Program-made: the position numbers and the translations under genes
The notes under the pieces: generated by a model
The model's input: only the letters and a program-made list of their open reading frames with translations
Told to the model about the DNA's origin: nothing
Databases searched by the model: none
Shown: positions 20,317-63,800 of the stretch, in pieces
Layout: each line of letters starts with the position of its first letter
How positions within the stretch are numbered: position 1 is the first letter of the stretch
From: Impatiens glandulifera
Taxonomy: Eukaryota > Streptophyta > Magnoliopsida > Ericales > Balsaminaceae
Direction of reading: 5' to 3'
DNA length: 64,000 bases
Assembly: GCF_907164915.1 (NCBI RefSeq)
Contig: NC_061869.1
Location: 24,474,676-24,538,675, forward strand

Positions 20317-22034
20317 TGATATGATCGACTTTATCAATAGAGACGGGGTCTGGCGATTGATGAAAGCTTATGAAAAACGGTTTGAAAGAAATCTTGTTAG
20401 GGATTTAATTCGATTTTTATTCTACGCAAACACTTGAAACAGAATAAAGGCGGAATTGTTTATTTAGATTTGAAGCTCAAGATGAAGAATGTGAAGATGA
20501 CAGAAATGAAAAGACACAACAGTTTGTTTATGGATGTTCGGAGCAAACTTTTCTACGTCACCCCTTCTTCCAACCACCGGAAGGATTCACTATAATATGA
20601 TTCGAATCAAAATACAGTTTGCACACACTTAACTCACTGTTGAACAGAACACCCTCTGTTCAATTTACAAGATGAAGAATATCACTCACCTAAAGGTGTT
20701 TTTGATTCTAGCTCTTTCTTGATTCACACACAGTACAATCAGGAAAGTAGCTTACGGCTTGAATATTCAAAGGATTGATTACACATTAGTTCTAGCAAGA
20801 TGATCGACTTCTTTCTCTCTCTATAATTCCGTTCAGCCTCATATCCGTTGTCCTTTAGAATCTTTAAATATGCACAGGTACCAACGGTCGAATCTTTAGA
20901 ATGAAATGTGGCACTCTTCCATTGGAACGCCTCCATAGTACACAGTAGGTTCTGAGCGCAAGGATCGTGGCCGTACTCCATCTGGTAGTGCGCCGAATAT
21001 TCTTCAGGGATGTACCTGCAAAACAAATAGTGTGAAGGATATTCTCTTACGTGGCATTCGTTGGTTGGTTGCGTCTAGCTATCGTACTGATCTTCACTAG
21101 AAAGTGGAGCAGGAGTAGCGTACAACTATAACACGTGGGTAAGCGGGGGTTAGCTTCAAGTAGACTGCTTAAGCATAGCACTAGACGTATTTCAGTTAGA
21201 CGATCTCGTCTAATGAAATCAAACGTCCCCGTCTAAGAGCAGAATCCATTAGACCACCTGGTCTAATGGGATTAGAATTACGTCCAATTATAATCACTTC
21301 AGACTAATTTGAAGGAGTTAGACTACACGTCTAACTTTCACAAACCATTAGACTGCACGTCTAACTCCACGAGTTAGACTGCACGTCTAATTTCGGTTCT
21401 ACTTCAGACTTGTCTGAAGGAGTTAGACTACACGTCTAACTTTCACAAACCATTAGACTACACGTCTAACTCCACGAGTTAGACTGCACGTCTAATTCTG
21501 GTTCTACTTCAGACTTGTCTGAAGGAGTTAGACTACACGTCTAACTTTCCCTTTCTATTAGACTGCACGTCGAACTCTACGAGTTAAACTGCACGTCTAA
21601 TTCCGTTCCACTTCAGACTAATCTGAAGGAGTTATACTCCACGTCTAACTTTCACAATCTATTAGACTTGCACGTTTAATTCCGAATATATTAGACTGCA
21701 CGTCTAACTTCACTGAGTTAGACTGCACGTCTAATTTCGATTTCCATTAGACTGCACGTCTAATTTCGAATTCATTAGACTGCACGTTTAACTTAACGAG
21801 TTAAACTGCACGTCTAATTCCGAATTAATTAGACTGCATGTCTAACTCTACGAGTTAGACTGCACGTCTAATTTCATGCATCTAATACCAAATCGGTCTA
21901 ATGAACCTCATTAGAACCGAGTCTTATGAAATCTGATTTCGATACACCTGCATTAAAATGCATAAATCATTTCATCATCAAAATCCCAATAGTCAAACTA
22001 TTTCAACACTTAGTCAAAATAATTTGAACCAACA
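20317..22034 (-). repeat. 3' LTR of element W
   Basis: 1718 bp, TGATA to CCAACA. It contains the shared box (20528-20567), a hairpin after it, and the palindromic minisatellite at 21305-21875. The 95-aa ORF at 20739-21026 recurs in the other LTR (29891-30178) because it lies in LTR sequence; I do not treat it as a gene. Confidence 0.92.
21305..21875. repeat. Palindromic minisatellite TTAGAC-N5-GTCTAA, ~18 copies (left LTR of W)
   Basis: Units such as ttagactgcacgtctaa and ttagactacacgtctaa recur about every 26-35 bases, linked by short spacers (ctccacgag, tttcacaaacca). Each unit is a 6-bp inverted repeat around a 5-base core and contains CACGTC, an ACGT-core element. Confidence 0.92.
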
Positions 22035-22049: not shown

Positions 22050-22439
22050 ATTATCATATTGAAATCCTGCATAGATAACAGATTAGCTTATCCATCATAC
22101 AAATTTAAATAAACCCATGTTTACATGCAAATATAGCATTCAGAATATCAAATTCATACACACCCAATTATGAGTGTTTTCAGAAAAAACACACAAAATA
22201 TTGTTCCAAAAATAATCAAAATAAGTTCATAACAAAACATTATCAAAAGATCTTCAAAACCTTTATCTTAAATGAAAATAATTTCTATTCTAATCTTCTT
22301 CTTCTTCCTAATCGTTTCTCTGGAAAGGATAGTCTTCAACCTAAGAGATCTCTAAGACCGCGGTTAGAGGAGGGTTGGAGACATCTCTTTTCCTTTTCTT
22401 GGATTTGAGCCTCTTCACCCTAAGAACGTATTCGACAAC

Positions 22440-23045
22440 CTTCTGGTTGTTTAGAATTTTGGAAGGAAGTAGAGGAAAGCGCTAACAGGATCGTCAAAAT
22501 CAAATATGGTCTTCCGAGCACAGACCATTCTAACAAGGTTTGCGAAGAGGAAGCTTGTCCAGTTGACAGGAACACCCCTGGTGATTTCCACCATTATCTG
22601 AAAAACCTTCGTACAGTACTTTTAAGAAGATTCTTTGGAGAGAAAAGATTTTGAGATGATTTCGCTTAGAAGAGCAAACTCATCTTTTATGAGGTTTTTC
22701 TTTCCATGAATATCCATTTGGGGTGAATCAGAAAAGACTTTCATCATTGTAAACATTATATTAGACGGAGTGGTTGAGAACTCATGAATACCTACGTTAG
22801 GAAGTTGAAAAAACATACCGAATGATTCTTGCCCATCACAATCCCAGCAACGATTCGGTCCTGATAAAAACCGTCTTTTTCAAAAAATTCACGAACCAAC
22901 TGTTCGTGATATAGATGATGAGAGGTGATGAATTTTCTCAGCCCGGTGGCTTTCAAGGATTCAAACATCTTATGCATACTAGGAGATTTCAACGTGGAAA
23001 CTAATTTGAATCCACTTGAATAGATTTCGGAGAGAAGGAAGACAT
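22440..23045 (-). pseudogene. Extra 3' ORF of element W, homologous to ORFs A, B and C of X and Y
   Basis: Starting at ATG 23045 (MSSFSPKSIQVDSN, then a stop), the remnant tracks ORF A of element Y. In order it has FESLKATGLRKFI (~22950), LVREFF, GKNHSV, then KYCTKVFQIMVEITRG (~22620-22575) and PVNWTSFLFANLVRMV (~22575-22525). It is broken by several stops and frameshifts. It lies between pol and the PPT, in pol orientation, exactly where the A/B/C module lies in X and Y, but as a single copy. The function is unknown. Homology rests on motif order read by eye; I am fairly sure of it because the P-V-N-W block and the TGL block both match. Confidence 0.7.
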
Positions 23046-45357: not shown

Positions 45358-48007
45358 TTATTCCCTCTTCTTGTTGTTCTTAGGCATGTATCTCTCGAGT
45401 AGGTATTCAACCATCACTCCCTTTCCCGGATTACAAAGATCGACGCCAAATCCGGAGGAAGATGCTTGACCGCCCGAGGTTCCAGTGAATGGCGAATCCT
45501 GTGCTGGTGAAGGAACCGATCTTAGTGGTACCGCATCGATACCCCGCGCTCTCTTTAATAGCGGTGTATCCTCGTCATCAATCTCTTCTACTTCTGGTGG
45601 AACCGGGTTGAAGGGAGGAGCATTGGTCGGTTCCGCAATGTCAGCCAACATCTGTTTAGTCCGTTTAACCGCTGACTTCTTGGTGGCCTTCCTCTTTCTT
45701 GTGACCGGTCCGGTTGAGGTAGCAGCCGGATTCGAGGATTTATTTCTTTTGGCTATATCTTCTATTATCAAATGTTGTTGAATTAGCCAAGCCGCGTCCT
45801 CATTCGCCTGTACCGCTTGTTCCGGTGCAACATCTTCTACCACTTGAACATGTTGGGCCAGGGCCGCATCCGTCTCTTCCCTTTCCTTCTGAAGCCGTAT
45901 GTTCTCGTTTTCAACTTCTTGAATCTTTTGAGCCGCGATCTCATTCGCTTTCTCAAGCGCTTCGTCGGCCGCTAGATTGGCCGCGATCAATTCTGCAAGC
46001 TTCGGTCCGGGCATGCTTTTCTTCAAGCTCTGCCATTCTTTGAGCCATTGTACCGGCCTGGATACCGGATTGAAGCAGACCCTCTTCAAAAGATGTCAAC
46101 CTTTGATCCGTTGACATAAGTTGTTGGGCAGTATTGTTGTGACCCTCTTCAAGTGTCATTAGCCTTTGATCCATTAAACCGAGCCGCTGGTCGGTTTGAG
46201 CAAGACCGTTCTCCAGATTTGAAGTTCTCTATGTCGTGGAGCTGAACAGTTGGTCGGTTATGCCGTAGTTATCTTCAACGGTTGTAAGCCGTTGGATCGC
46301 AGAGTTCAGTTTTTCACCGGTAGACTCAATCAACCGGTTTGATTTCTTTGCTCTTTCCTTCATTTTCTTCTGCCACGGCATGATGACATCTTGACAAAGT
46401 TCCTCGATTAAATCCTTGACATCGTCCTTGGTTAGAGTAGGCACCGGCATTTTGTCGGTTTGTGGAGACCCGAGTCGATCGGTGAGCTGAGTATCTGTTT
46501 CGTTTTCAATTCTGTTGACCGTGGATTCCGGTGGAGGAGGGGCATTCTCGGCCTCATCCGGATTCGGACCGCCATCAGATTTGGAGCCGTCATCATCTCC
46601 AGGATGCGATCTCGAAAAGTGTGAAGCTTCTTGATGACAGGCTTCCGATTCCAACCGTGTCATCTCATCGGTTAGCTCCCGTTCCTTAGTCGTTAACATG
46701 TCCAGCACAATTACATGAAGCTGGGTTTTCTCCTCTTCAGGGATACTCTGTTCTTGAAGGTGACAGATATGGCCGGTGAGTTCTTTCAACCGGGCGTGCG
46801 GTTCAACCATCCTTCCTCTTCTAAGAGCGGTGATTACGCTCTTCGTCTTTGTAAGGTCGAACACCGACCTTTTCATCTCCACCAATTTTTCATATCTCTG
46901 ATGAGCGGGATGCTCTGGTATCATGTCAGCATAACCGACTTCCTGCCGTTGTCAGAGCCCATTGATAGTAAACATCACTCGCAATATGAGCCTGCTCGAA
47001 AAGTTGCTCTATTATTTGGGAGACAAGTCCCTCTCCCAATTGTTGAACGTTGTCGTCCACCGATCTAAATATCTTCGGTTGACTGGCTGAACCGGATTCA
47101 TTATTTGTGGCCGGATTTTCATCGACGAACTTCCCCTTTCCTCTGTCTAACATATTCTCCTCGGTGTTATTGGAGTTGGTGCGGCTGAATTTGGTTGCGG
47201 AATCCTACGGATTATGGATGTCGGCTTGAATATTAGCCGATCCGGATGTGTGGGGAACCGCTTGCTTCCAGATTGTTCAGCCGCCGGAGCCTTCTTCTTC
47301 CTATGCTGAGATTTCCTAGGACGAGTGGGTTTATCGGTTGAGGCCTTCGCCTTGTTTGGCCGAGCCATTGTTCCCAAGAAATGGGTAGATCTTATTATCT
47401 TGCTGGAAGATATAAGAACACCCGGACCGGTTTCGATATTTGAATGGCGCATCAGCTTGCCGAGTGGAACGGCATATCTCCGAGACCGTTTCGAAGTCGG
47501 ATCCACCATCTCACAAAGGTAGAAGAAAACGACCTTGGCCTAGTTGATTGGAATACCTCTAATCAAATCGGCCATCATCTCAATTTTTGCACTTGTGAGG
47601 CTGTCATAGTTGCCTCTTCTTCCTTGGACCGACTTTGAGAGAATCTCGCAAAGTGGCTTATACTCCGGTTTTAGGTCGGTTTTCTTACCGGACACCACTA
47701 TCGGTTGGATAGTGTCCGATACAGCACAGTGAACTGTTAGTAGTACGTCCTCGTCCGTTTCCACGGAGAAGTCACTCCCTTCTGTCGGTAGGCGGAGAGC
47801 TTCAGCAACCGATTCTTTGTGACTTTGAACGGTTTTCCACCGACCGTTGCAGATATGATACAAGACAAACGGTCCATTTAGAAAATGTTCCAGACCCGAA
47901 ACTGATATGAGTTCCAGCACTTGTTTAGCCTATGTCGATCCGTTTGTTCGAATTTCTTCGAAGTCCACTTGGAAAATGTGAGTGAAGAGTGCAGAATCGC
48001 GACCCAT
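45358..48007 (-). pseudogene. ORF C of element X: 3' accessory protein with head domain, basic stretches and coiled coil
   Basis: It starts at ATG 48007 (MGRDSALFTHIFQVDFEEI). The head domain shares with ORFs A and B the pattern SGLEHFL, LRLPTEGSDF, YKPLCEI and GIPIN, where a TAG (47540) replaces the expected Trp. After it come VVFFYLCEMVDP, Lys/Arg-rich segments (around 47330-47270), a proline/acidic linker and a long heptad-rich region (46174-45700). A GPVTRKRKATKKS basic motif, the SPFTGTSGGQASSS motif and a basic tail ending NNKKRE complete it. A stop near 47930 and frame changes near 47150, 46925 and 46090 disable it. It aligns along its length with ORF C of Y. Function unknown; nuclear targeting is only inferred from the basic motifs. 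Confidence 0.78.
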
Positions 48008-48114
48008 TTTGTTTAGAGATACCGGAACTTGGAGAGTTTTAAAGTTTAAAGAAAAGTTGAATGCTAGAGAGAGAAAGCAGATTCGCGGAAGAAGGAAATA
48101 GAAATGCGAATGCA

Positions 48115-48240
48115 TGTATTTATAGGCAGTGGCCTGGAATGCGAACCGACGCGAGCCGTCACATCAAGAAAAGGGCGCCAAATTTCCCTCCAAAACGAGT
48201 TGGCGTTAGGTTTTTGGAGGGAGACCTTTTGGCGGGAAAT
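48115..48240 (-). promoter_or_regulatory. Promoter of ORF C (X): TATA box and E2F-like sites
   Basis: Minus-strand TATA CTATAAATACATG at 48114-48126, ~110 bases upstream of the ATG. Further upstream lie GGGCGCCAAATTT (48175-48187) and TTTTGGCGGGAAAT (48227-48240); the second nearly matches the plant E2F consensus TTTSGCGC/TTTCCCGCC. Confidence 0.55.
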
Positions 48241-48502
48241 TATTAAGGCGGTTCACCTTTTAACCGATAATTTAATGAAGCGGTGAGTAATTTATCCTGT
48301 GATTAATGAAGCGGTAAGCGATTTTAACCGGTTGAAAATTTAAACCGATATTCGAACTTTGTAATTTTGAATCGATTTTTGAATTTTATTATTTAAATTG
48401 ATATTCGATTAATGAAGAAGACATGATAATGATAGAACCGACATGAAGATCGGTTTGAGGTACAAATACAAGGTTAAAATTAAGAATTAAACGACTTAGA
48501 AC

Positions 48503-49198
48503 CTAAATCATTCTAGAGAATTTGTCTTCCACCACTTCCTCGTTGAGGACATTTGAGAGATTTATCGGTGTACCCGGTCCAAGATTTAGGACGCAGACCC
48601 GAATGACCCGGCTCAAGTGAGGAGCATAGCCAAACCCTTTCTTTGTTTCGACCATAGTCTTTAGATTGTTAAAGATGACCGATGCCCAATTGATGGGGGT
48701 TGAGCTGACGATATAGGTCATCATGTCGAAAGCTCTTCTGGAGTAGTTTTGATTTGGAGATTGGTAGATGATCGACCGGTTAACGATCTCATGCAGGAGT
48801 TGAATATGAGGAGCAAGATTGGCCTTAAGGCTGTTGTTTTCAACCGGTGTTTCGGAGCCAGAGAACAGTTCAGCGTAATCTTCAGCTGAACTGCCCACCC
48901 GTGAAGGAAAATCCGAAAACCCCTCAGTTGGAAGATTGAACATCCCGGCGAATCGGTGTTCCGGGAGAACGATGACACTGGTTTTAACGGTGGAGACAAT
49001 GGCACCGTTAAACATATGTGCATTGGAGAAAAATTCCAGTACCTCTGGAATAAAGAGAGGTCCGAATTCTTCTAGGAAATCAAGAAGTCCGGTGTTGACT
49101 AGAGATTCAAAGATTAATTCTCTTGTTTCAACGTCTTCCATGGAGAGTACTGAATCAAAATCGATGCAAAGATAGTTTCTGAGAGTGCGATGAGACAT
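48503..49198 (-). CDS. ORF B of element X, 231-aa accessory protein, intact
   Basis: The uninterrupted ORF starts at ATG 49198 (MSHRTLRNYLCIDFDSVLSM), ~80 bases after a TATA-like box. Domain landmarks are TGLLDFLEEF (~38), FFSNAHMFNGAIV (~60), NLPTEGFSDFPSRVG (~90), IQLLHEIVNRSIIYQSPNQ (~130) and TPINWASVIFNNL (~165). It has no signal peptide, transmembrane segment or zinc motif. It is open in both X and Y, unlike A and C, which may mean it is the most constrained part of the module. It resembles, in general layout, plant transposon-associated domains (possibly the Pfam class called putative plant transposon protein), but I cannot verify that. Confidence 0.82.
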   Translation of the reverse strand: MSHRTLRNYLCIDFDSVLSMEDVETRELIFESLVNTGLLDFLEEFGPLFIPEVLEFFSNAHMFNGAIVSTVKTSVIVLPEHRFAGMFNLPTEGFSDFPSRVGSSAEDYAELFSGSETPVENNSLKANLAPHIQLLHEIVNRSIIYQSPNQNYSRRAFDMMTYIVSSTPINWASVIFNNLKTMVETKKGFGYAPHLSRVIRVCVLNLGPGTPINLSNVLNEEVVEDKFSRMI

Positions 49199-49589: not shown

Positions 49590-50319
49590 TTAATGACCGA
49601 AAGAGGCGATGTTTCTGTTCTTCTTCTTCCAAGCTTTCTCGAACCGCTCATAGAAGGAATCCGCGGAATCTCTGGTCAATACCTGAGATTGGTTCAACCC
49701 TTCGCCTGAACAGAGCGGAACCTCGAGTTCGATGAGTAGAGAGCTAATTTGAGGAATGAAACTGGTGTGCCGGGTATTGATCATCCAGATTAGGATGTCA
49801 AACAACAGCCTAAACCAATTGACCGGAGTATCGGTTGTTATGGCGGTCATGATGTTGAAGATTGTGGGACAGTAGGTGTTGGTAACATCCTTTCCCAAGA
49901 TGGCCCTACCGATGATGTCGTTGAGAAGCTGATATTCAACCCTCAATGATGATCGTGCTCCGTGGTCATCGACCGGGGAGTTGGATCGGGAAAATTCCAG
50001 GGATATTTCGACTTTTTGTTCAGCCGAAATATTTATGTCAGTAAGACCTTCCTTGGGAAGGTCGAAGCACCGAGCGAAGTCCCGCTCAGTGAAGTCGAAA
50101 ACCGTTCCTCTTACCCTTGACTGGATAAGAGTATCAAAGAATGGAGTGCCACGAAAAACTGAATTCGATTACAGTCTTAGGAAAGATGACATGTTTGTCA
50201 TCTAGGAAAGTCCGCAGACCGATACTTTCCAAAGACTTAATCATTTTGAAAATCTCGTAGTGTTGTGTTCCTTGTGTCGAGTCAAAATCAACTTGAAGAA
50301 TGTTTTGGAACTGAGACAT
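49590..50319 (-). pseudogene. ORF A of element X, ~245-aa accessory protein, frameshifted
   Basis: Starts at ATG 50319 (MSQFQNILQVDFDSTQGTQ). A frameshift near 50160 breaks it at VIEF; homology resumes as GTVFDFTERDFARCFDLP in another frame and continues to the stop at 49590. Landmarks: IGLRTFLDDKHVIFP, YQLLNDIIGRAILGKDV and DTPVNWFRLLFDILIWM, in which the Trp is intact. The tail is basic (YERFEKAWKKKNRNI). It corresponds throughout to ORF A of Y. Confidence 0.8.
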
Positions 50320-50850: not shown

Positions 50851-53316
50851 TTTATATCGGTTAAACCGAGTATGTTTGTGAAGAAAGAAAACTTAGCTTC
50901 CTGTAGAGGCTTTGTGAAGATATCGACTACTTATTGATTAGTTGATACGTATTCCAACCGAATATGCATCTGCATGACATGTTCCCAGATGAAATGATGC
51001 CTTATGTCGATGTGCTTGGTTCTATAGTGTAACACCGGATTGTATGTGATGGCTATGGCACTTGTGTTGTCACAGAAGATAGGAGATTCTTCGGCGATGA
51101 CACCGAAGTCCTTTAGTTGTTGTTGAATCCATAGAATTTGTGAACAACAACTTTTGGTTGCCAGATATTCAGCCTCTGCAGTTGATGTAGCAACCGACGT
51201 TTGCTTCTTGCTATGCCATGAAACAAGCCGATCACCCAAGAATTGACATGTTCCGTTGGTACTTTTTCTATCAACTTTACATCCTGCATAGTCTGCATTA
51301 GAATAGCTTGTGAGGTTAAAACTTGAGTCATTTGGATACCACAAGCCGACTTCAGGGGTTCCCTTTAGATATTTCAGGATTCGTTTAGCGGCTATATAAT
51401 GAGACTGTTTGGGATTAGCCTGGAATCTTCCACACACTCCGACCGCAAATAGTATGTCCGGTCTACTTGCTGTTAGGTACAGAAGTGAACCAATGATTCC
51501 ACGATAGGCTGTCAGGTCTACTCCCTGACCGTTATCATCTTTATCCAGTTTGATTGATGAGCTCATTGGTGTAGCGGCAAAGGAACATGTGTCCATCCCA
51601 AATTTCTTTAGAAGTTCCTTTGTGTATTTGGGTTGACTGATGAAAGTTCCTCCTTCGAGTTGTTTAACCTGAAGACCTAGGAAGAAACTTAATTCTCCCA
51701 TCATACTCATTTCAAATTTGTTAGTCATCAGAGTTGAGAATTTATCACACAGCTTAGGATCGGTTGAACCGAAAATGATATCATCTACATAAATTTGAAC
51801 AAGTAGAATGTGTCCCTTTTTCTCAAATTTGAATAGGGTTTTGTCTACTGAACCTATGGTGAAGTCATGATGTAACAGAAATGCGGTTAACGTATCATAC
51901 CAAGCTCTAGGAGCTTGTTTTAAACCGTACAGTGCTTTATTCAGACGATATACATGATTAGTCAGGTCAGCATTTTTAAAACCGGGTGGTTGTTCAACGT
52001 ATAATTCTTCACGTAGGTCACCATTTAAAAATGCACTTTTAACATCTATTTGGAAAACTTTAAAAATTTTGAAAGCAGCAAAGGCTAGAAAAATTCTAAT
52101 GGCTTCAATCCTAGTTACATGGGCAAATGATTCTTCAAAATCAATGCCTTCTTCCTTTTTGTATCCTTGTTCCACTAATCTAGCTTTGTTCCTCGTAACC
52201 AAACCGTCTTTATTGAGTTTATTTCTAAATACCCATCTTGTTCCTATGACCGGTTGATCATTCGGTCTAAGGACTAGATACCAGACTTTATTACTCTCAA
52301 ACTGGTTTAACTCTTCTTGCATTGCCAGGATCCAATCCGGATCCGACAGTGCTTCATCCACCCTTTTCGGCTCAATCTGGGATATGAAAGCGAAATTAAA
52401 GTATTCCTCCAGTTTTTTTCGTCTAGTTTGGACAGGTTTTGAAGGGTCACCTATAATAAGCTCAGGAGGATGAAATGTGTTCCTTTTGAGATTCGGTTCA
52501 TGAGTGTCTACCAAATCACCGTTTGTTTGATCAAGGCTAGACATATCAGTAGGCTGAGCAGTAGTGTCAGACTGACCGATTTCCTCAGTTTGAACCGAGG
52601 TGCCAGCTTCCTATTGTGTGGCAGCTTGATCCGGCTGGGTTTCAACAACACCCATTTAGTCATGGACAAACCGTCTGTAAACTGGAATCTCATCTTCACT
52701 ATCAGAATGGATATTATTATTTTCCAATCTGTTGTGTAGATCAAAGGATGATGCAGTGTTACTTTCAACAGATTCATCGAATACAACATGAAAAGATTCT
52801 TCCACGGTTAAAGTTATAGTATTATATACTCTATATGCTTTACTAACCATCGAGTATCCTAGAATTATCCCAATATCGGATTTTGCATCAAAAGCAGATA
52901 GGTAATTTTTGCCATTAATGTGAATGAAACATTTACAACCGAAGATCTTAAGATACCGAATGTTAGAAATTCTATCAAAATACACTCCGTACAGTGTTTT
53001 GTTGTGAAATTTGTTAATCAAAGACCGGTTTTGTGTATTACATGCAGTATTGATAGCTTCAGCCCAAAATTTTGAGCAACACCTGAATCGGCTATCATAG
53101 ACTTTGCGGCTTCCTTAAGAGTTCGGTTCCTTCTCTCAGCCAGGCCGTTCTGTTGAGGAGTTCTAGCACTAAACAACTCGTGTCTAATGCGGATTCATCA
53201 AGAAATGCATTTAGAATACTATTTATAAATTCGGTTCCTCTATCACTCCTAATGCTATTTATGTGTGTTGATTTTTTATTTTATAAACGCTTAAGTAGTG
53301 TAATGAAATTGGATGC
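50850..53316 (-). pseudogene. pol: X pol: integrase C-terminus, RT and RNase H; integrase cut by element Y
   Basis: A 537-codon open stretch (52544-50931) encodes the linker, RT and most of RNase H. RT motifs: [37 protein letters not shown] and catalytic [15 protein letters not shown]. RNase H motifs: [10 protein letters not shown] and the TAEAEY region, then a TAA at 50931. The last signature (DIFTKPL) follows that stop. Upstream, the integrase C-terminal part (53316-52660) has a frameshift near 53020-53100 and a stop near 52656. At 53316 the integrase is interrupted by the Y LTR. The RT itself is intact, so the element decayed late. Confidence 0.9.
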
Positions 53317-54554
53317 TGTTAGGATGTAGGTCGCGGCTGGGGGACCGGGGTTAGCTGGTTATCGCGTCTTACTCAAAGGGTGGTGATTAATCTGGTTAGA
53401 GATTAATACCGAGGTTTCAATACTACACAAACTATCACAAACCTTGAACAGAGTTCAAGCGCGAAAGTGGTTTATTTCAGATTGAAGCAGCACACAAACG
53501 AGATAGGCAGAACCAGATTTGAATAAGACAGGTTTGGAGATTGCTGGGTTGGTTTTGGAGCTTAGTGATTCGGTCTAGATGATGTTGAGTCAGTTGGAGC
53601 GGTATTAGTAAGTTAGTGCAGATCGGTTATTAAGTAAAGCACGCGGAAAGTAAATAACAAGACAGGTTTTTATGGATGTTCGAAGATGAAACTCCTACGT
53701 CACCCCTTCCTCTCGAAACCGCGAGAAGGATATTCACTAAGAAATACAAACACAATCCGATCAAGACTTATTTCCTGCTCAATAGCACCCGTACAATTTT
53801 AACCGAAATTGTAAATACACTTCGAATAATCGCTTAAGCTTTATAGAGATGGAGCACAACTTTTGACTTAGGCTGTGAAAATTCAGAACTTGTAACCCAC
53901 ATTTAATCCTCTCCAGCTCCTTCTTTTATAGGTGAAATGTGCCAACGGTCACATTTCATTTACTTGAATCTGATTGATAGAGCAGAGGTTCAGTGATTCG
54001 GACCTGGCGGTCTAGTATTCAGACCCGGCGGTCTAGTTTTCAGACCTGGCGGTCTAGTCTTCCAGTGTGTAGGTCAAACCGTCTAGGTTTGTCTTTTACT
54101 TAATATGGCAATTGTCGGTTGGACAGTTGCCTGTACCTGGAAGATTGCCTTTCTGATTTATCCTAGAGTGGAAAAATCTTGTAGGACGATCATCTGCAGC
54201 CTGCAGACTTTCCTCAAACTTGTATGAATATGGCAATACTTAGTCTGTTCCTTCGGTATCATTCTTAACAGATACCGGAAGTGTCTTTTTATGCTGGTCG
54301 GTTGTTTATGCTAACCGGATGACTTCCGGTTTTTCCATGGCTTCTGATTGACCGACTGTTTAATTGATTCTGGCCTTTTGATTTGACCGATCTTGTCTTT
54401 CTTGTTCGGTCAGGTTTTTGGTCGGTTTGATTTCTTGACCGGTTGAGTTTCTTAACCGGTTGAGTAATTTGACCGGTTGAATTTCTTTGCCTGTTCCTGC
54501 ACAAGAGATTTGTTTTTGTTAAGTTTTATTTAACCGATCTAATTTTATCTAACA
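53317..54554 (-). repeat. 3' LTR of element Y
   Basis: 1238 bp, TGTTAGGATG to TATCTAACA, close to the Z LTR. Shared box at 53669-53708, hairpin with TCTCG/CGAGA core after it, TATA at ~53923-53932, ACCGGT palindromes at 54295-54490. Confidence 0.9.
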
Positions 54555-54907
54555 ATTTCTCCCTTTTTGATTATTTTATTTAAAATATTCAAAATTATGT
54601 AAGAATGCAAATGTAGGCCGGTTTTGTTTTTAAGAGTTTGTTTGGCCGGATTTTTGGAAACTAACTTGGGAGAGTTTTTCGAAAAATTTTGGAAAATTTT
54701 GAGAAAAATTTTAAAATTTTTATCTTTATCTTATCAATTTCTCCCTTTTTGATTATTTTATTTAAAATATTCAAAATTATGTAAGAATGCAAATGTAGGC
54801 CGGTTTCCGAAAATCACTTTATATATATATATAAGAAATATGCTAAAGCAAAAATAGTATATATATAAAACCGAAATAAACATAAGTAAATATAGTAGAT
54901 GAAGCCC
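54555..54907 (-). repeat. Duplicated polypurine-tract region and 3' UTR of Y
   Basis: The block atttctccctttttgattat plus aaaatattcaaaattatgta and gcaaatgtaggccgg occurs at 54555 and again at ~54737. The remainder up to the ORF C stop is AT-rich and non-coding. Confidence 0.88.
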
Positions 54908-57562
54908 CTATTTCTTCGATCTGGACGGCAGGAAATGATCCAGCAATTCATCGTCTGATTTTCCCTTATCCGTTTGAACCGGCCTAGATGAGGATTCCCG
55001 ACCGCCTGAGGTGCCAGTGTGAGGGGAGAACGGTTGACCGATCGATCTGATTGGAACCACATTCAAACACCATTGTCTTCTAAGCTGCGGCTCGACATCT
55101 TCTTCGAAATCTTCATCTGTTTGCAAAACCGGGTTGAATTGAGGTTCAACAACCGTATCGGTGACTCTGTTCAATAGTCCCGTGATCTCCGCCCGCCTCG
55201 AAGCAGCTTTTCTTTTGTGTGTAACCGGAACAGAAGGAGAAGCAACCGTTTTGGACTTCTTGTGAGCCTTTGCGAAATTGTTATACGTTTCTTGTTGAGC
55301 CCTTAGCCGGTTAGCATCTTCGGTTTGTTGAGCCGCTATGGACTTTGCGATGGCCGGTGCACTGACCGCTAGGTTTTGCATATGGCCGACTATGTTCGCA
55401 TCAGCCGCTGTCGCTTCCTTCTGTATTCGGGTCTGCTCGTCCAACGCATCTTGGAGTTTCTGAGCCGCGAGAGCATTCACCTCCTCAATTGCCTTATCGG
55501 CAGCCAGCTTAGCCGCTATTAATTCTGCCACCTGTTCGGTGACCGCCTTGAGATCGGCTTCAAGCTTGGCATTCTTTTCCTCAAGGGTTGTTACCTTCTC
55601 ACGATTAGATCTGGCTTGGGCACCGGATTGCGCCAGGTCCTCCTCGACCTTTGTCAATCTTTGATCGGTCGTTTCTTGAGACCGTTCCATCTCAGCTACC
55701 TATTGGCTAACCGAAGCGAGGTCGGTCACCAGCTTCGGAGTTATAATCTACAATGCCTTGGTTCGATCAAGATGACCGCCGTACAGTTGATCCGTATTAC
55801 CGTAATTTGTTTCAACGGACGTGATCCGATCGACCGCCTTCTTTAGATCATCCTTTGTCGTTTCGGCCATCTCGAAGGTTTTAGACGCGGTTTCTTTGAT
55901 TTTCTTCTTCCATGGCTGAACCGCGTCGTTGACGAATTCCTCAATGAGGGTCTTGACCCTCTCTTTCCTAATGACCGGTTCCGAATCCCCGATTTGAGTA
56001 GATGCGCGTTGTTCGTTGGGAGGTGTACTTGTCCTTACTTCGGTTATGTTGATGTTCTAGTCCGGTGGAGGAGTGGATAACTCTTCATTGGTCGGATTCT
56101 GACCGCCAACATCCTCTAGAGGTGATGAGTTCGTTGTTTCTTGGTGTTCGGGCACCGCCTCAAGCTGCGCCACCTCCTCGGTTAGTGCTCTTTCCTTGAC
56201 CGCAAGTAATTTTAACACCAAAAGTTGAAGTTGAGAATTCGGTGTTCCCGGAGTATGCTTTTCTTGTAGGCGTTGAATGTGTTCGGTTTGCCTTTGTAAC
56301 CGAGCACGCGGTTCGACTATCGTGTTTCGCTCTAGGGCGGTTGTGACGTCGTTAGCCTTTGTGAGGCTGATGACCTCCTCCTCCATTTCTATCAACTTTT
56401 CGAATTTCTGGCTAACGGTGAGATCCGGTAGCATGTTTTTGTAGAATATCTGATGCCGGTGCCGGATCCATTGATAGAACACCTCGGCTGCCGCACGAGC
56501 CTGCTGGTGTATCTCGTCCATGATTCTGCTGACGAGATCCTCGACCGTTTTCCTTGTATTATCATCAGCGTGGTCATCTTCCTCCCCTAGTCTGTCCGAA
56601 CCGGCATCAGCGTTATCATGACTGACCGATTGATCCTCCACTATTTGTTCTTTCCCTTTACCGGACTGATCCTCTCCGGTATGTTGTGAATCGGTTCGGC
56701 CAGAACTGGATGCCGAGTCTTCCGTGTTGGGTATGTCGGACATTGGATTAGCCGATTCGATTGGTTGTTTATCTTTCTTGCTTCCGGATTTTTCTTTTAC
56801 CGGAGCTGCTTTCTTAACGGATGCCTTCTTCCTTCGGCCACCCGTAGAACAGGAGGCCTTCCTTTTGCTTTTCCTCTCCTTGAATTGCTGAGACTTTATA
56901 ATTTTGCTGGATGAGAGGAGGACACTAGGGCCGGTGTTGATGTTGAAATGACGCATGATTTTCCCAAGTGGGATGGCGTATCCCCATGACCGAGTGGATG
57001 CCGGATCCACCATTTCACATAGGTTATTGAAGATTACCTTAGCCTAGTTTATTTTGATGCCGTTGACCAAACCGGCAAGTATCTCAATCTTTGCCCGGGT
57101 GAGACTATCATAGTTTCCCCCTCTTGCTTGGACCGATTTTGTGAAAATATCACATAGCGGTCTGTACTTCGGTCGAAGAGATGATTTCTTTCCGGAGATC
57201 TCGATAGGAACTGCGGTTTCTGAGAGAACCTGACAAGATGCCTCGAAGGTCTCTTCATCTAAAGCCGCGGAGAAGTTGCTCCCTTCGGATGGTAGATGTA
57301 GTATTTCAGCGACCGATTTCTCCGTCAGTTCGAGCTGCTGACCGCCGATGTTGGCAAGTATTGATCCTCCGGTGATGAATGCGGTTCGGAAAAATTCATT
57401 AACCGCATCCTGGTATAGTATGAATGGACCGCCCAGAAAGTATTCGAGGCCGGACTCGGAGATTCTGGATAATACCTGCTTTGCCGGAGCCGAACCGTTT
57501 GCCCGGATTTCCTCAAAATCGACTTGGATCATATGTTTGAACAATACTGAATCACGACTCAT
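54908..57562 (-). pseudogene. ORF C of element Y: 884-codon accessory protein, one frame with four TAG codons
   Basis: From ATG 57562 (MSRDSVLFKHMIQVDFEEI) to the stop at 54908 a single frame is kept with no frameshift. Four in-frame TAGs interrupt it (about 57043, 56057, 55750 and 55704). Residues 1-175 are the shared domain (ESGLEYFLGGPFILY, LHLPSEGSNFSAA, YRPLCDIFTKSV, GIKIN). Next come a Lys/Arg-rich stretch (KRKASCSTGGRRKKASVKK), an acidic linker, a Glu/Gln-rich coiled coil (~56450-56150) and a second coiled coil (55690-55350, TDQRLTKVEEDLAQ). A THKRKAASRRAEI basic motif, the GTSGGRESSS motif and tail SRSKK complete it. The size and basic/coiled-coil layout suggest a nuclear or particle-associated structural protein, which is inference only. 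Confidence 0.8.
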
Positions 57563-57676
57563 TTTGAATAATCGAACCGAGAAACAAGAGAATAAGGATT
57601 TTAGAGAGTTTGAAGAAGATGAATGCTAGAGAGAGAAAGCTGATTCGCGTGAGAATGAAATAAAATAACTAAGGAC

Positions 57677-57868
57677 CCTATTTATAGTTGCGGTTTGGAA
57701 TTCCAACCGTCGCGAACCGTCCCATCATGAGTGGGCGGGAATTTTCCCTCCAAGTATTTTGAGCAGAAAGTATGGGCGGGAATCCTTAGGCGGGAAAGTA
57801 TAGGCAGGAAACCATAGGCGGGAAACCATAGGCGGGAATATTCCCTCCAAAATTTTGAGCGGGCTTTT
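57677..57868 (-). promoter_or_regulatory. Promoter of ORF C (Y): TATA box and array of E2F-like GGCGGGAA sites
   Basis: Minus-strand TATA CTATAAATAGGG at 57677-57688, followed by a ~115-base leader that shares gctagagagagaaagc with X. Upstream, plus-strand GGCGGGAA-type sites lie at about 57734, 57775, 57789, 57803 (one mismatch), 57817 and 57831, with a weaker GAGCGGG at 57861. The four middle sites are spaced ~14 bases apart. Confidence 0.6.
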
Positions 57869-58130
57869 AATGTCTGTTATTTAACCGGCGATGATGCGGT
57901 TCTTCTTGTAACCGTTTATTAAACGAAGCGGTTATTTAACCGTGAGGATGCGGTTTTTTACCGGATTTTTCAACGAGGTGATTTATTGATATTAACCGGT
58001 TAGTTAGATGGATATTGCGATTTTGACCCGGTTAACAAACTTAAATATTAGATATTCATTGAAAAGAAAGATACATAATAAAAGCCGATTCATTGATCGG
58101 TTTAGAATACATAGGAAATAAAATTACAAC

Positions 58131-58832
58131 CTATGTAATGACTATTCTGGAGAGCTTGTCCTCCACCCCATCCATATCAAGAACATTCGATGGGGATGCC
58201 GTTGTACCCGGTCCAAATTTTGGACGGTACTTATGAAAGAGCCGGCTTCGGTGAAGAGCGTAACCGAGACCTTTCTTGGTCTCCACCATAGTCCTCAGGT
58301 TTTGGTAGATAACTGGTGACCAGTTTATGGGTGTATTGCTGACAATGTAGGTCATTATGTCAAAAACCTTTTTGGAGTAGTGTTGGTTGGGAGATTGGTA
58401 AATGATGGAACGATTGACAATCTCGTAGAGGAGTTGGATGTGGTGGGCAAGGCGGGTTTTTAGCCCATGGTTCTCCACCGGTACCTCGGTTCCGGAAAAC
58501 AGTTCTGAATAGTCGGTTGCTGCACTTCCCACCCGGGTTGGAAAGTCGGAAAACCCTTCTGTGGGAGGATTGAACGTTTGAGAGAGTTCGTTTTCCTCTA
58601 GGCAAAAGAAGTGGCCTCTCACTATGGAAACAATGAAATCTCCTCTCATAGAGGCATTTCTGAAGAAGTCGATTACGTCCGGAAGGAGTATGGGTCTGGA
58701 TTCTTCGAGAAAAGTGCGAAGACCGGTGTCGATTAGTGAGTCAAACATGAGCTCCTTTGTTTCCAGGTCCCAATGTTCCATGCAAGAATCAAAATCGATG
58801 CTCAAGAAGTTCCTTAGAGTTCCACTCGACAT
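58131..58832 (-). CDS. ORF B of element Y, 233-aa accessory protein, intact
   Basis: Uninterrupted from ATG 58832 (MSSGTLRNFLSIDFDSCMEH). Landmarks: DTGLRTFLEES, VIDFFRNASM, LSQTFNPPTEGFSDFPTRVG, IQLLYEIVNRSIIYQSPNQ, VSNTPINWSPVIYQNL and RTMVETKKGLGYALH. It aligns over its full length with ORF B of X and, more distantly, with A and with the head of C. No membrane or secretion signals are seen. Its own TATA box and short leader suggest separate expression. The role is unknown. Position corresponds to the env-like region of Sireviruses, but nothing in it looks like an envelope protein. Confidence 0.83.
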   Translation of the reverse strand: MSSGTLRNFLSIDFDSCMEHWDLETKELMFDSLIDTGLRTFLEESRPILLPDVIDFFRNASMRGDFIVSIVRGHFFCLEENELSQTFNPPTEGFSDFPTRVGSAATDYSELFSGTEVPVENHGLKTRLAHHIQLLYEIVNRSIIYQSPNQHYSKKVFDIMTYIVSNTPINWSPVIYQNLRTMVETKKGLGYALHRSRLFHKYRPKFGPGTTASPSNVLDMDGVEDKLSRIVIT

Positions 58833-58908
58833 GATTCAAGCTTTGCCAAGAGAGAGAGAGTTCAAGAATTTTTGGTTTTTGAGATGTGTTAAGTTGATAA
58901 GGTGGGGT

Positions 58909-58921
58909 TCCTTATATAGAT
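58909..58921 (-). promoter_or_regulatory. TATA box of ORF B (Y)
   Basis: Minus strand TCTATATAAGGAA, ~80 bases upstream of the ATG, followed by a CT-rich leader just before the start codon. Confidence 0.55.
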
Positions 58922-59269
58922 CCAAAATTGGAGGGAATATGGCAACATTTAATGTTGAAATTCAGTTTTGTCTCATTAATGAAAAGAATATTTATGTTTC
59001 CAAAAATCCTTGGGAAGGAGTTACTTTTGACTGGTTGCGGAGCTCGAGGTAAGGAATCTAGTTGGAAAGTAACTAATCTTGTTAGATAGTAATTACTCAT
59101 GTAGTTGGAAGTTGAAAGTTACTTATCATTAATGAAAAGGGTACAAGAAACCAGAGATAAGTAATTAAAACCGAAAATATCATAGACTAAACCGAGATGA
59201 TCATGATAGAGTTATACATTGATACAACCGGTGCGTACAGCAAAATAACCGGTTGTAGGAGGGAGTGAC
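58922..59269. other. Spacer between ORF B promoter and ORF A (Y)
   Basis: Non-coding; matches the corresponding X spacer (49285-49589) in several blocks such as accggttg and ggaatctagttgg. Confidence 0.5.
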
Positions 59270-60013
59270 TTAGTTGCTGGTGGAGTTGAGGTGGCGGTTC
59301 CTCCTTTTCCAGGCCTTCTCAAACCGCTCATAGAATGAGTTAGTGACCTCTTTGGTGATGACTTGTGTCTGGTTCAACCCTTCTCCCAGACAGAATGGAA
59401 CCCTAAGTTCCAAAAGTAGGCAGCTTATCTGGGGGATGAGGCCAGTTTGACGAATGCCGATCATCCAGATTAGGATATCAAACTACACCCTTGACTAGTT
59501 GATTGGCGTACCCGTGGTTATGGAAGACATCATGTTAAAAACTGCGGTGCAGTAGGTGTTTGACACATCCTTTCCTAGGATGCCTCGACCGATAACATCG
59601 TTGAGAAGCTGATACTCAGCTCTCAGCGATGACCTAGAACCATTGTCATTGACCGGGCGGTCTGACCGAGCAAAGCTTAAGGCGATTTCGGCCTTTAGTT
59701 TAGCCGGAACGTTTAGGTCGGTGAGCGCTTGCTTCGGAAGGTCGAAGCATCTTGCGAAATCACTTTCTGTGAAGTCAAACACAGTTCCTCCCACCTTGGA
59801 TTGAATGTGGGTGTCGAAGTGAGGAGTACCTCGGAAAACCCTGGCATTGTAGAAAAATTCTAGGACCGTTTCCGGAAAGATGACGTGTTTATCATCTAGA
59901 AAGTGTTTGAGACCGGTGTCTTCAAGTGACTTAATCATCTTGAAGACTTCATAATGTTCAGTGCCTTGAGCTGAATCGAAATCCACTTGAAGGATGTTTG
60001 GAAACTGAGACAT
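59270..60013 (-). pseudogene. ORF A of element Y, 247-codon accessory protein, two TAG codons
   Basis: One frame from ATG 60013 (MSQFPNILQVDFDSAQGTEH) to the stop at 59270, interrupted by TAGs at about 59494 (in place of Trp in the PINW motif) and 59485. Landmarks: DTGLKHFLDDKHVIFPETV, LEFFYNARVFRGTPHFD, GGTVFDFTESDFARCFDLP, YQLLNDVIGRGILGKDVSN and FDILIWMIGIR. The tail YERFEKAWKRRNRHL is basic. It is the ORF closest to pol and the clearest match to the single 3' ORF remnant in element W. Confidence 0.82.
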
Positions 60014-60073: not shown

Positions 60074-60085
60074 CTTATATATTAG
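60074..60085 (-). promoter_or_regulatory. TATA box of ORF A (Y)
   Basis: Minus strand CTAATATATAAG, ~60 bases upstream of the ORF A ATG, conserved in X. Confidence 0.5.
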
Positions 60086-60560: not shown

Positions 60561-63500
60561 GGTCAAACCGAGTGTGAGTCTAAATTGAGAAAACTTAGCT
60601 CCTGCAGAGGCTTTGTGAAGATATCGGCTACTTGTTGTTCTGTCGATACGTATTCCAACCGGATATGCTTCAGCATGACATGTTCCCGAATGAAGTGATG
60701 CCTTATGTCGATGTGCTTGGTTCTATAGTGTAGAACCGGATTGTAGGTGATTGCTATGGCACTTGTATTATCACAGAAAATTGGAGACTCTTCGACTATG
60801 ATACCGAAATCCTTCAGTTGTAGTTGGATCCAAAGAAGTTGTGAACAGCAAATTCGGCTGCCAGATATTCAGCTTCTACGGTTGACGTGGCAATAGATGT
60901 CTGTTTCTTGATGTGCCATGAAACAAGCGGATCACCTAGGAATTGGCATGTTCCGCTGGTGCTTTTTCTATCAAATTTACAACCTGAATAATCTGCATCT
61001 GAGTAACTTGTGAGGTTGAAAGATGAGTCATTTGGATACCACAAACCGACTTCAGGAGTTCCCTTTAGGTATTTCAAGATTCGCTTTGCGGCTGTGTAGT
61101 GAGACTGTTTTGGATTAGCCTGGAATCTTCCACACACACCGACCGCAAATAGTATGTCCGGTCTACTTGCTATCAAGTATAGAAGAGAACCGATGATTCC
61201 TCGGTATGCTGTTATGTCTACTGCTTGACCGTCATCATCCTTGTCCAGTTTGACCGATGAGCTCATTGAAGTAGCGGCTGAGGAGCACGTGTCCATCCCA
61301 AATTTCTTTAGAAGTTCCTTAGTGTACTTGGGTTGGTTTATGAAGGTTCCTTCTTCGAGTTGCTTAACCTGAAAACCTAAGAAGAAACTTAATTCTCCCA
61401 TCATACTCATTTCAAATTTGTTAGTCATCAGGGTTGAGAATTTATCACATAGCTTACGATCGGTTGAACTGAAGATGATATCATCTACATATATTTGAAC
61501 AAGTAGGATATGTTCCTTTTCTCAAATTTAAATAGTGTTTTGTCCACCGAACCGATGGTGAAATCATGTTTTAACAAGAATGCGGTTAGTGTGTCATACA
61601 AGGCTCTAGGAGCTTGCTTTAAACCGTATAGTGCTTTGTTTAACCGGTATACATGGTTGGGCAGTTCAGCGTTTTTGAAACCGGGTGGTTGTTCAACATA
61701 TACTTCTTCACGTATGTCACCATTCAAAAATGCACTTTTAACATCCATTTGGAAAACTTTAAAATTTTTGAATGCAGCAAAAACTAGAAAAATCCTAATA
61801 GCCTCAATCCTAGCTACAGGGGCAAATGATTCTTCAAAATCAATGCCTTCTTCCTGTTTATATCCTTGTGCCACTAATCTGGCTTTGTTCCTCGTGACCA
61901 AACCGTCTTCATTGAGTTTAATTCTAAATACCCATCTTGTTCCTATGACCGGTTGATCTTTCGGTCTAGGGACTAGGTATCAGACTTTGTTACTCTCAAA
62001 CTGGTTTAATTCTTCTTGCATTCCCAAGATCCAATCCGGATCTGACAATGCTTCATCCACTCTTTTTGGCTCAATCCGGGATATAAAAGCGGAATTCAAA
62101 TATTCCTCCAGGATTTGTCACCTAGTTCGAACGGGTTTTGAAGGGTCACCTATAATTAGCTCAGGAGGATGATTTGTGTTTCTTTTGAGATTGGGTTCGG
62201 GAGTGTCTACCAAATCACCGTTTATTTGATCAAGGCTAGACGTATCGGTAGGCTGGACAGGAGTGTCAGACCGACCGATTTCCTCAGTTTGAACAAAGGT
62301 GTTAGCTTCCTGTTGTGGGACAGCTTGATCCGGTTGGGTTTTATCATTACCCATTTGGTCATGGACAAACCGTCTAAAAACCGGAATCTCATCTTCACTA
62401 TCAGAATGGATATTGTTGTTTTCCAATATGTTGTGTAGATCAAAGCATGATGCAGTGTTGCTTTCAACCGATTCATCGAAAACAACATGAAGTGATTCCT
62501 CCAAGGTTAAAATTCTAGTGTTATACACTCTATATGCTTTGCTAACTGTTGAGTAACCTAACATGATCCCAATGTCGGCTTTTGCATCAAAAGCAGATAG
62601 ATAGGTTTTACCATTTATGTGAATGTAGCATTTACATCCGAAAATCTTAAGATACCTAAGGTTAGGAACCCTATCAAAGTATACCACATAAGGTGTTTTG
62701 TTGTGAAACTTGTTAATTAGAGAGCGGTTTTGTGTATGACATGCGGTGTTGATAGCCTCAGCCCAGAATTTCTGGGCAATACCCGAATCGGCTATCATGG
62801 ATCGTGCGGCTTCCTTGAGAGTTCGGTTTCTTCTCTCGGCCAGGCCGTTTTGTTGAGGAGTCCTAGCACTAGACAACTCGTGTCTAATACCGAATTCATC
62901 AAGAAATGCATTTAGAGTACTATTTGTAAATTCGGTTCCTCTATCACTTCTAATGCTATTAATGCGTGTTGATTTTTCATTTTGCAAACGTTTAAGTAGT
63001 GTAATCAAATTTAATGCGGTTTCACGTTTAGATGGAAAGAATATTACCCATGTATACCTAGAATAATCATCAACAACTACCATAGTGTAAAGCATACCTC
63101 CTAGGGTGACGACCCTAATCGGTCCAAATAAATCCATGTGGAGAAGATCTAAGCATCGGTTAGATTGAATGTGTCCTTTACTTTTAAAGGTTGACTTAGT
63201 TTGTTTACCCATTTGACATGCTGAACAGACCTTATCCTTATTTAACACTATGTCAGGAACTCCTTCGACTAACTTTTTACCGCGGATATAGTTTAAGGTT
63301 TTCATGTTTAGGTGGTTTAGTCTTTTATTCCACAGCCAGGTTTGATCGCTTTTAGCTATCATGCAGACATGATATTCTACTTTGTTTTTCCAATCTACTT
63401 TGTAAATGTTTGCTAACCTATTTCCGGTCAGTAGTATGATACCTTGAGAGTTTTTAACTAAGCATGCATGTTTAAGAAATTCTACAGTGTATCCAGCATC

Positions 63501-63800
63501 ACACATTTGACTAATGTTTAGCAGGTTAAAACGTAGGTTTTCAACTATCAGTACATTATCAATTGTAAGGTTACCATGGACAATCTTACCCTTGCCCACA
63601 GTTCTACCTTTTGAGTTGTCACCGAAGGTGATTAATGCACCGGTTTCTATTTTGATGTCGGTTAGAAGATTGTTGTTCCCAGTCATGTGTCTGGAGCAAC
63701 CGCTGTCCAAATACCATTCAGAGTTTCCTAATTGTTTCTTCATATCCTGCAAAATGTACATATTTACAACTATTTGGTACCCACATTTACTTGGGTCCAC
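60560..63800 (-). pseudogene. pol: Y pol: protease, integrase, RT and RNase H, lightly damaged
   Basis: One frame runs from ~63800 to 61485: protease WYLDSGCSRHMTG (~63715-63677), zinc motif WLWNKRLNHL ... CSACQMGKQ, and integrase catalytic Asp (LLHMDLFGPI), Asp (IRSDRGTEF) and Glu (GLAERRNRTLKEAARS). It continues through the SIRE-like linker [14 protein letters not shown], then a TGA at 62118, RT with a second TGA near 61980 and [13 protein letters not shown] one-base loss in a T run near 61515 shifts the frame before [10 protein letters not shown]. RNase H (to ~60570) has a further frameshift near 60850. There is no ATG at 63800; the protease frame overlaps the gag stop in another frame. 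Confidence 0.9.

Follow-up and report, generated by a model that had tools for sequence, protein, structure and literature searches.

What are three consecutive, mutually similar genes doing between pol and the 3' long terminal repeat (LTR) of a plant retroelement? The question is raised by a 64-kb stretch of the Impatiens glandulifera genome (64,000 nucleotides (nt) of contig NC_061869.1, positions 24,474,676 to 24,538,675 of the forward strand; hereafter the window, within which all positions are counted) that holds three copia elements on the minus strand, here called X, Y and Z. In both X and Y, three genes termed A, B and C lie collinearly between pol and the 3' LTR, in pol orientation, and run from 60013 (start of A) to 54908 (end of C) in Y and from 50319 to 45358 in X. 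An earlier note on this DNA, made from the letters alone, had described this module in both elements, and its coordinates, strand and gene order were verified. Sequence comparison shows A, B and C to be diverged copies of one ancestral gene, whose triplication predates the divergence of X and Y.

A domain common to three genes

A domain of ~230 residues is common to the heads of A, B and C. With B of X as the tblastn query, residues 7-229 match C of Y and residues 8-229 match A of Y. Because B is thereby aligned nearly end to end, the domain is equivalent to the whole of B, and C is equivalent to a B-like domain followed by about 650 residues. The long tail that the earlier note ascribed to C is thus present, but this domain span makes it slightly shorter than the ~700 residues claimed. 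Likewise, the start motif MS...(I/V)DF(D/E), said to open all three genes, is found in all six genes except C of X, which begins MG.

The relationship among the heads was examined in several ways. All 15 head pairs score above the best of 300 shuffles, the weakest being B of Y with C of X (63 versus 59). BLASTP aligns A of Y with B of X (36% identity over 169 residues, 90.9 bits), A of Y with C of Y (23% over 174 residues, 58.5 bits) and B of Y with C of Y (25% over 168 residues, 48.1 bits), placing paralogue identity in these long alignments at 23-36%. Comparison of profiles with hhalign links all three genes, with probabilities of 99.5 for A-B, 96.9 for A-C and 95.7 for B-C, and the mutual relationship proposed in the earlier note is borne out. 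Between X and Y, residue identity over aligned codons is 67-81% in three pieces of A, 60% in B and 54% in the C head, and reaches 75% in the 24 codons before the C head. In a tree of the six head sequences each gene pairs its X copy with its Y copy (supports of 0.988, 0.990 and 1.000), which makes the triplication older than the X/Y split. Together with the homology of the heads, this tree upholds the earlier suggestion of an ancestral gene triplicated inside the element and then diversified.

The third element offers a simpler arrangement. Z carries one broken gene of the A/B/C family, which begins about 760 nt after a pol that is 67-78% identical to that of X. The gene is matched in tblastn by five of the six heads, C of Y giving no match at an expectation value (E) of 0.01. 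Since only about 0.3 kb lies between this gene and the LTR, there is too little room for equivalents of B and C. The two testable pieces of the Z gene group with different paralogues, at weak supports of 0.782 and 0.679, so Z may represent either the ancestral one-gene state or a loss of genes; taken alone, the Z pieces have no match in Pfam.

Beyond the window, PF20167 (Transposase_32) is hit by five of the six heads, the matches covering 54-93% of the profile and the best of them (7.4e-05) coming from B of X. All of these scores fall below the curated cut-off (23.1 against 45 bits at best), and the A/B/C domain would accordingly be classed, on profile similarity, as a remote relative only of that family. 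No head matched PF03078 (Athila ORF1) or PF10536 (plant mobile domain) at E up to 10, in searches where the HMMER filters drop most weak hits. Sequence of more than 60 residues follows the pol match in 4 of the 120 listed pol relatives. In the Tanacetum protein P0045, the region after pol is aligned with C of Y at a score of 70, against 48 for the best shuffle (0/300), and hhalign gives an E of 0.0005, where the best among 15 shuffles gives 0.13. This protein thus appears to carry a distant relative of the A/B/C domain after pol, linked via C only. The Apium protein P0049 was borderline and is not counted as a relative: its hhalign E is 0.0094 against 0.045 for the best of 15 shuffles, and its score is reached by 0/300 shuffles with C of X and by 1/300 with each of three other heads, the B heads being at chance. 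A match of P0022 with A of Y was taken as chance, the stretch being judged pol-like by eye.

Broader protein searches recovered no relative, either with B of X alone (E 0.001, 176 candidates) or with an alignment of the six heads (E 0.1, 3973 candidates). These searches covered B of X and the heads; their length filter would pass over proteins that greatly exceed the query in length, and distant relatives fall below the cut-off. As a control, a pol query found 7985 relatives in the same database, plants included. Eight stretches in IMG/VR matched a pattern for B of X, none of which was confirmed, and the sole sequence match in the Protein Data Bank (4uz2, E 0.76) was taken as chance.

These searches bear on a possible host origin, in which the element would have captured A, B and C. 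Such an origin would suit their G + C content at third codon positions, which is 0.47-0.56 in pieces of A, B and C versus 0.35-0.40 in pol, as well as the candidate promoters described below. Yet neither protein search, within the limits given, found a relative where pol found thousands, the family follows pol in Z and in the Tanacetum protein alike, and the name of PF20167 is that of a transposon family; capture from the host is therefore considered very unlikely.

Selection and decay in X and Y

The ratio of nonsynonymous to synonymous divergence (dN/dS), estimated between X and Y by the method of Nei and Gojobori, is 0.17 for B (bootstrap 0.08-0.29), 0.05 and 0.12 for two pieces of A, and 0.10-0.13 for three pieces of pol. 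In C the ratio is 0.12 in the first piece of the tail, just after the head, and 0.35-0.37 in three further pieces from the distal tail. Synonymous divergence is saturated in the N-terminal piece of A, the C head and the N-terminal piece of C, where no ratio is given. Purifying selection has acted on B and on the aligned parts of A and C, and most strongly on A and B. The earlier note would have been refuted by a lack of such selection on B across many copies; selection is evident here, though between two copies only.

This pattern has to be set against the present condition of the genes. Only B is open in both elements, A and C being broken in X and Y alike, and the module could be passenger sequence, a tandem duplicate without present function that is now decaying. 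The stops and frameshifts of A and C, the broken gene of Z and the relaxed ratios of the distal C tail would all fit such a history. However, pol of Y is also interrupted, so that decay after insertion accounts for the stops, while the selection seen between copies and the open state of B in both speak against mere carriage. On balance the passenger explanation is held to be unlikely.

The premature stops themselves follow a pattern. In A and C of both elements, every one of the ten stops inspected is UAG, though other stop-prone codons are commoner than UAG-prone ones; the stop at 47147 in X may belong to a shifted frame. This points to decay through CHG methylation, and the UAG-only spectrum fits such an origin. 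One UAG falls at the same codon in C of X and C of Y, although their aligned head codons have 59% of bases in common. Purifying selection is seen in the 90 codons that follow it, and A of Y has a UAG at the homologous codon. Since SIRE1 is said in parts of PMC3414828 and PMC2829016 to use stop-codon suppression for env, C might be made in two forms, a short head protein and a long one that arises when a conserved UAG is read through in a programmed way. Against this, two copies decaying in simulation come to share one stop or more with a probability of 0.12-0.17, the value of 0.17 corresponding to three in-frame stops in X. The uniformity of the ten stops fits CHG methylation decay, and no RNA structure was found downstream of the shared UAG (z of -0.03 and 0.29). 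Moreover, the shared UAG is internal to the domain, and a sense codon occupies its place in both copies of B, in A of X and in Z. Decay is the likelier source of the shared UAG, and programmed read-through is considered very unlikely.

Silent divergence is unevenly spread along the elements. Four-fold sites differ between X and Y at 119/194 positions in A, B and proximal C, at 41/90 in distal C and at 48/178 in pol, the difference between module and pol (119/194 versus 48/178) having a p of 3e-11. The spacers differ at 119/547, 112/389, 170/455 and 67/293 aligned positions (22-37%, gaps excluded). The silent sites of the module have thus diverged more than those of pol, but the spacers between the genes have not. 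Selection against cross-silencing was considered as a cause and dropped, because a mosaic history, CpG-richer codons and constrained spacers fit equally well. The spacers are unexplained by mosaic history alone; constraint on them would explain them. Within pol, silent differences rise toward the module (17/77, 23/83 and 8/18, comparing 60635-62240 with 50934-52544), and this rise may mark recombination.

Candidate promoters and predicted products

When X is compared with Y and gaps are counted, the 250 nt upstream of each gene show identities of 72% (A), 73% (B) and 62% (C), where shuffles reach at most 43% (20 each); by blastn there is no resemblance among the upstream regions of the three genes. 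TATA-like boxes precede A, B and C of Y by 68, 86 and 124 nt, and A and C of X by 58 and 117 nt. All told, five of seven upstream regions contain TATAWA between -140 and -41. The fraction of dinucleotide shuffles holding this motif is 0.10 for B and 0.06 for C of Y and 0.02 for C of X, and only C is notable on its own. The longer pattern CTATAWAWR, which was chosen after the sites had been seen, occurs 22 times on both strands of the 64 kb versus 10.3 expected, and three of these occurrences precede B of Y, C of Y and C of X. Pyrimidine runs of 12-13 nt lie before B and C, and of 6-7 nt before A. The conserved upstream regions and their boxes suggest that each gene may have its own RNA polymerase II (Pol II) promoter. 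An internal promoter has been proposed for Sirevirus ENV, according to PMC2829016, which could not conclusively identify one. Upstream of C, the spacer is rich in CpG (observed/expected 1.48 at 57563-58130 and 1.72 at 48008-48502), which recalls the CpG islands that PMC2829016 places 5' of Sirevirus ENV.

What the products might do is constrained by their composition. Membrane helices usually show a hydropathy near 1.6 or above. No membrane-like segment was found in 13 pieces of A, B and C, the highest 19-residue value being 1.47 on a simple scale rather than a dedicated predictor, with a few short X pieces left out. Clusters of lysine and arginine occur in the C tail of both X and Y, at different parts of the tail. 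Of five C-tail pieces, two have a heptad moment that beats all 30 shuffles, the counts of shuffles reaching each piece being 0, 1, 5, 2 and 0. True envelope-like proteins, which would help the element to cross membranes or to move between cells as has been suggested for the Sirevirus ENV-like genes, are thus most improbable candidates: coiled-coil regions are indeed described for those genes (PMC3414828, in part), but no tested piece reaches membrane-helix hydropathy, and basic clusters and three paralogues fit poorly with such a role.

Several known systems invite comparison. Elements of the SIRE group carry a sense open reading frame (ORF) between pol and the 3' LTR, eORF-3'F, that PMC6317226 reports, in the part concerned, from 74% of SIRE elements and sorts into 19 groups that resemble one another little or not at all. 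A sense extra ORF at this place is present in X, Y and Z, as in eORF-3'F and the Sirevirus ENV-like genes of copia elements. Unlike eORF-3'F, X and Y have three paralogues in a row, each with a candidate promoter and with no transmembrane segment found. A Sirevirus trait given in part of PMC2829016 is the presence, just before the 3' LTR, of several polypurine tracts that are identical to one another and have the octamer AGGGGGAG; two identical 16-nt stretches occur in X and Y and none in Z, and the exact octamer AGGGGGAG is absent from all three linkers. The order of domains along the minus strand (rve then RVT_2 in Y and Z, SH3_retrovirus then RVT_2 in X) puts integrase before reverse transcriptase, an arrangement that marks copia generally and not SIRE specifically.

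More distant parallels lie outside copia. The 3' ORF of sunflower Athila is partly similar to PF20167 and is related by its authors to PF03078 (PMC11728184, in part); that element is gypsy, whereas A, B and C are hosted by copia and no head matches PF03078. Grande gene23 is a 3' internal accessory gene that has a promoter of its own and whose product is nuclear, as outlined in a section of the review PMC7264820, but it is antisense, single and in gypsy, against a sense triplet in copia. The VANDAL anti-silencing proteins protect a mobile element from silencing, as part of PMC11728184 relates, and because VANDAL is a DNA transposon their likeness as accessory proteins is a lead only. Grande and VANDAL were both compared by description only. 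A single extra gene after pol is therefore known for this type of element; no triplicated set of this kind was found in the open-licence literature searched, mostly at listing level.

From these strands a history and a role can be sketched. X and Y would come from a SIRE-like lineage of copia in which the ordinary 3' extra gene (eORF-3'F, 'env-like') had become three genes by the time the two elements diverged; the Tanacetum relative after pol makes it probable that the module is this usual ORF in triplicate. A and B have kept the ~230-residue domain, and C joins it to a long, partly basic, coiled-coil-like tail. Each gene would be expressed from its own Pol II promoter, with a TATA-like box and, for B and C, a pyrimidine-rich leader, and not from the LTR transcript alone. 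The products would serve the element as intracellular accessory factors, probably nuclear ones. The common domain could be a protein-interaction unit, C a scaffold that oligomerises and holds nucleic acid or chromatin, and A and B its partners or regulators. The common ancestry of the genes, their order in two copies and the purifying selection are established by the sequences; SIRE membership, separate transcription, nuclear action and complex formation are points that we infer. A triplicated SIRE accessory gene, separately transcribed and intracellular in action, is given an even chance. The fuller picture, in which the three-paralogue cluster with its internal promoters forms an LTR-independent gene programme whose products make one nuclear complex bridged to chromatin by C, is rather doubtful.

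A number of observations weigh against this account of a triplicated, separately transcribed accessory gene. With A and C broken in both copies, function is read from past selection in two dead elements, and parts of A and C are saturated at synonymous sites. At the aligned place before B of X there is no more than a degenerate box, Z has no box, and the motif before A is frequent in shuffles (0.45 for Y, 0.68 for X). The heptad moment of B of Y, which lies outside any tail, is reached by only 1/30 shuffles. In the Tanacetum protein, the score of C of X is reached by 2/300 shuffles, the four A and B heads do not rise above shuffles, a six-head profile hidden Markov model gives an E of 0.17 among the 120 listed proteins, and Pfam returns no PF20167 match. 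Predicted models of B are poor, with a mean predicted local distance difference test score (pLDDT) of 46.0 from 13 alignment rows and 49.8 from 6. Foldseek found nothing for the 49.8-pLDDT model at E 0.001 (best 0.8), and nothing was drawn from the B models.

The role and expression of the SIRE 3' extra genes are left open in the relevant parts of PMC6317226, PMC2829016 and PMC3414828, which lends the locus some value. Three paralogues provide an internal comparison, in that features kept by all indicate what the domain needs; Z, with one gene, and X and Y, with three, form a contrast within one window; and the candidate promoters are directly testable.

Setting of the module in the window

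Coordinates of the genes, stops, candidate promoters and neighbouring parts of elements X, Y and Z
Feature	Position	Strand	Description	Remark
Y ORF A	59273..60013	-	single-domain, two in-frame stops	
Y ORF B	58131..58832	-	intact, 233 residues	
Y ORF C	54908..57562	-	head domain and tail with basic, heptad-like stretches; four in-frame stops	
X ORF A	49593..50319	-	frameshifted	
X ORF B	48503..49198	-	intact, 231 residues	
X ORF C	45358..48007	-	at least three in-frame stops, and frameshifts	
UAG in Y ORF C	57044..57046	-	in frame, same codon as in X	
UAG in X ORF C	47540..47542	-	in frame, same codon as in Y	
TATA-like box before Y ORF A	60075..60081	-	68 nt before the gene, aligned with one in X	weak, common in shuffles
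TATA-like box before Y ORF B	58911..58919	-	CTATATAAG, then CT-rich leader	degenerate in X
TATA-like box before Y ORF C	57679..57687	-	CTATAAATA	same nine bases in X
TATA-like box before X ORF C	48117..48125	-	CTATAAATA	
Y pol	60635..63800	-	integrase to RNase H, interrupted	
Y terminal polypurine tract	54555..54568	-		second copy of tract starts at 54750
Y 3' LTR	53317..54554	-	ends TG...CA	adjoins X integrase
X pol	50931..53316	-	cut inside integrase at Y 3' LTR	
Z gene	22344..23045	-	single broken gene of the A/B/C family	basic stretch follows in another frame
Z 3' LTR	20395..22034	-		

Element Y lies at the right end of the window, its 5' end being outside. Y appears to be inserted within X, because its 3' LTR abuts integrase sequence of X. 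After the pol and A-B-C module of X come LTR-like matches at 45.1-43.8 kb. The best match among the relatives found for pol, at 71% identity, is from Dorcoceras hygrometricum. The SIRE-like element Z spans about 31.0-20.4 kb and has two LTRs, the 5' LTR being found as blocks at about 29.6-31.0 kb; the LTR blocks are 91-95% identical over their matched parts, and the Z LTR contains a repeated unit of about 105 nt.

Two further retroelement remnants lie near the left end of the window. An LTR at 1189-2469 on the minus strand is 77% identical to that of Y; the sequence that follows it resembles a tRNA-Met primer binding site, so this is probably the 5' LTR of a fourth related element, the rest of which lies beyond the edge of the window. 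At 3268-4734, on the plus strand, lies a distant copia reverse transcriptase that is 33% identical to the pol of X.

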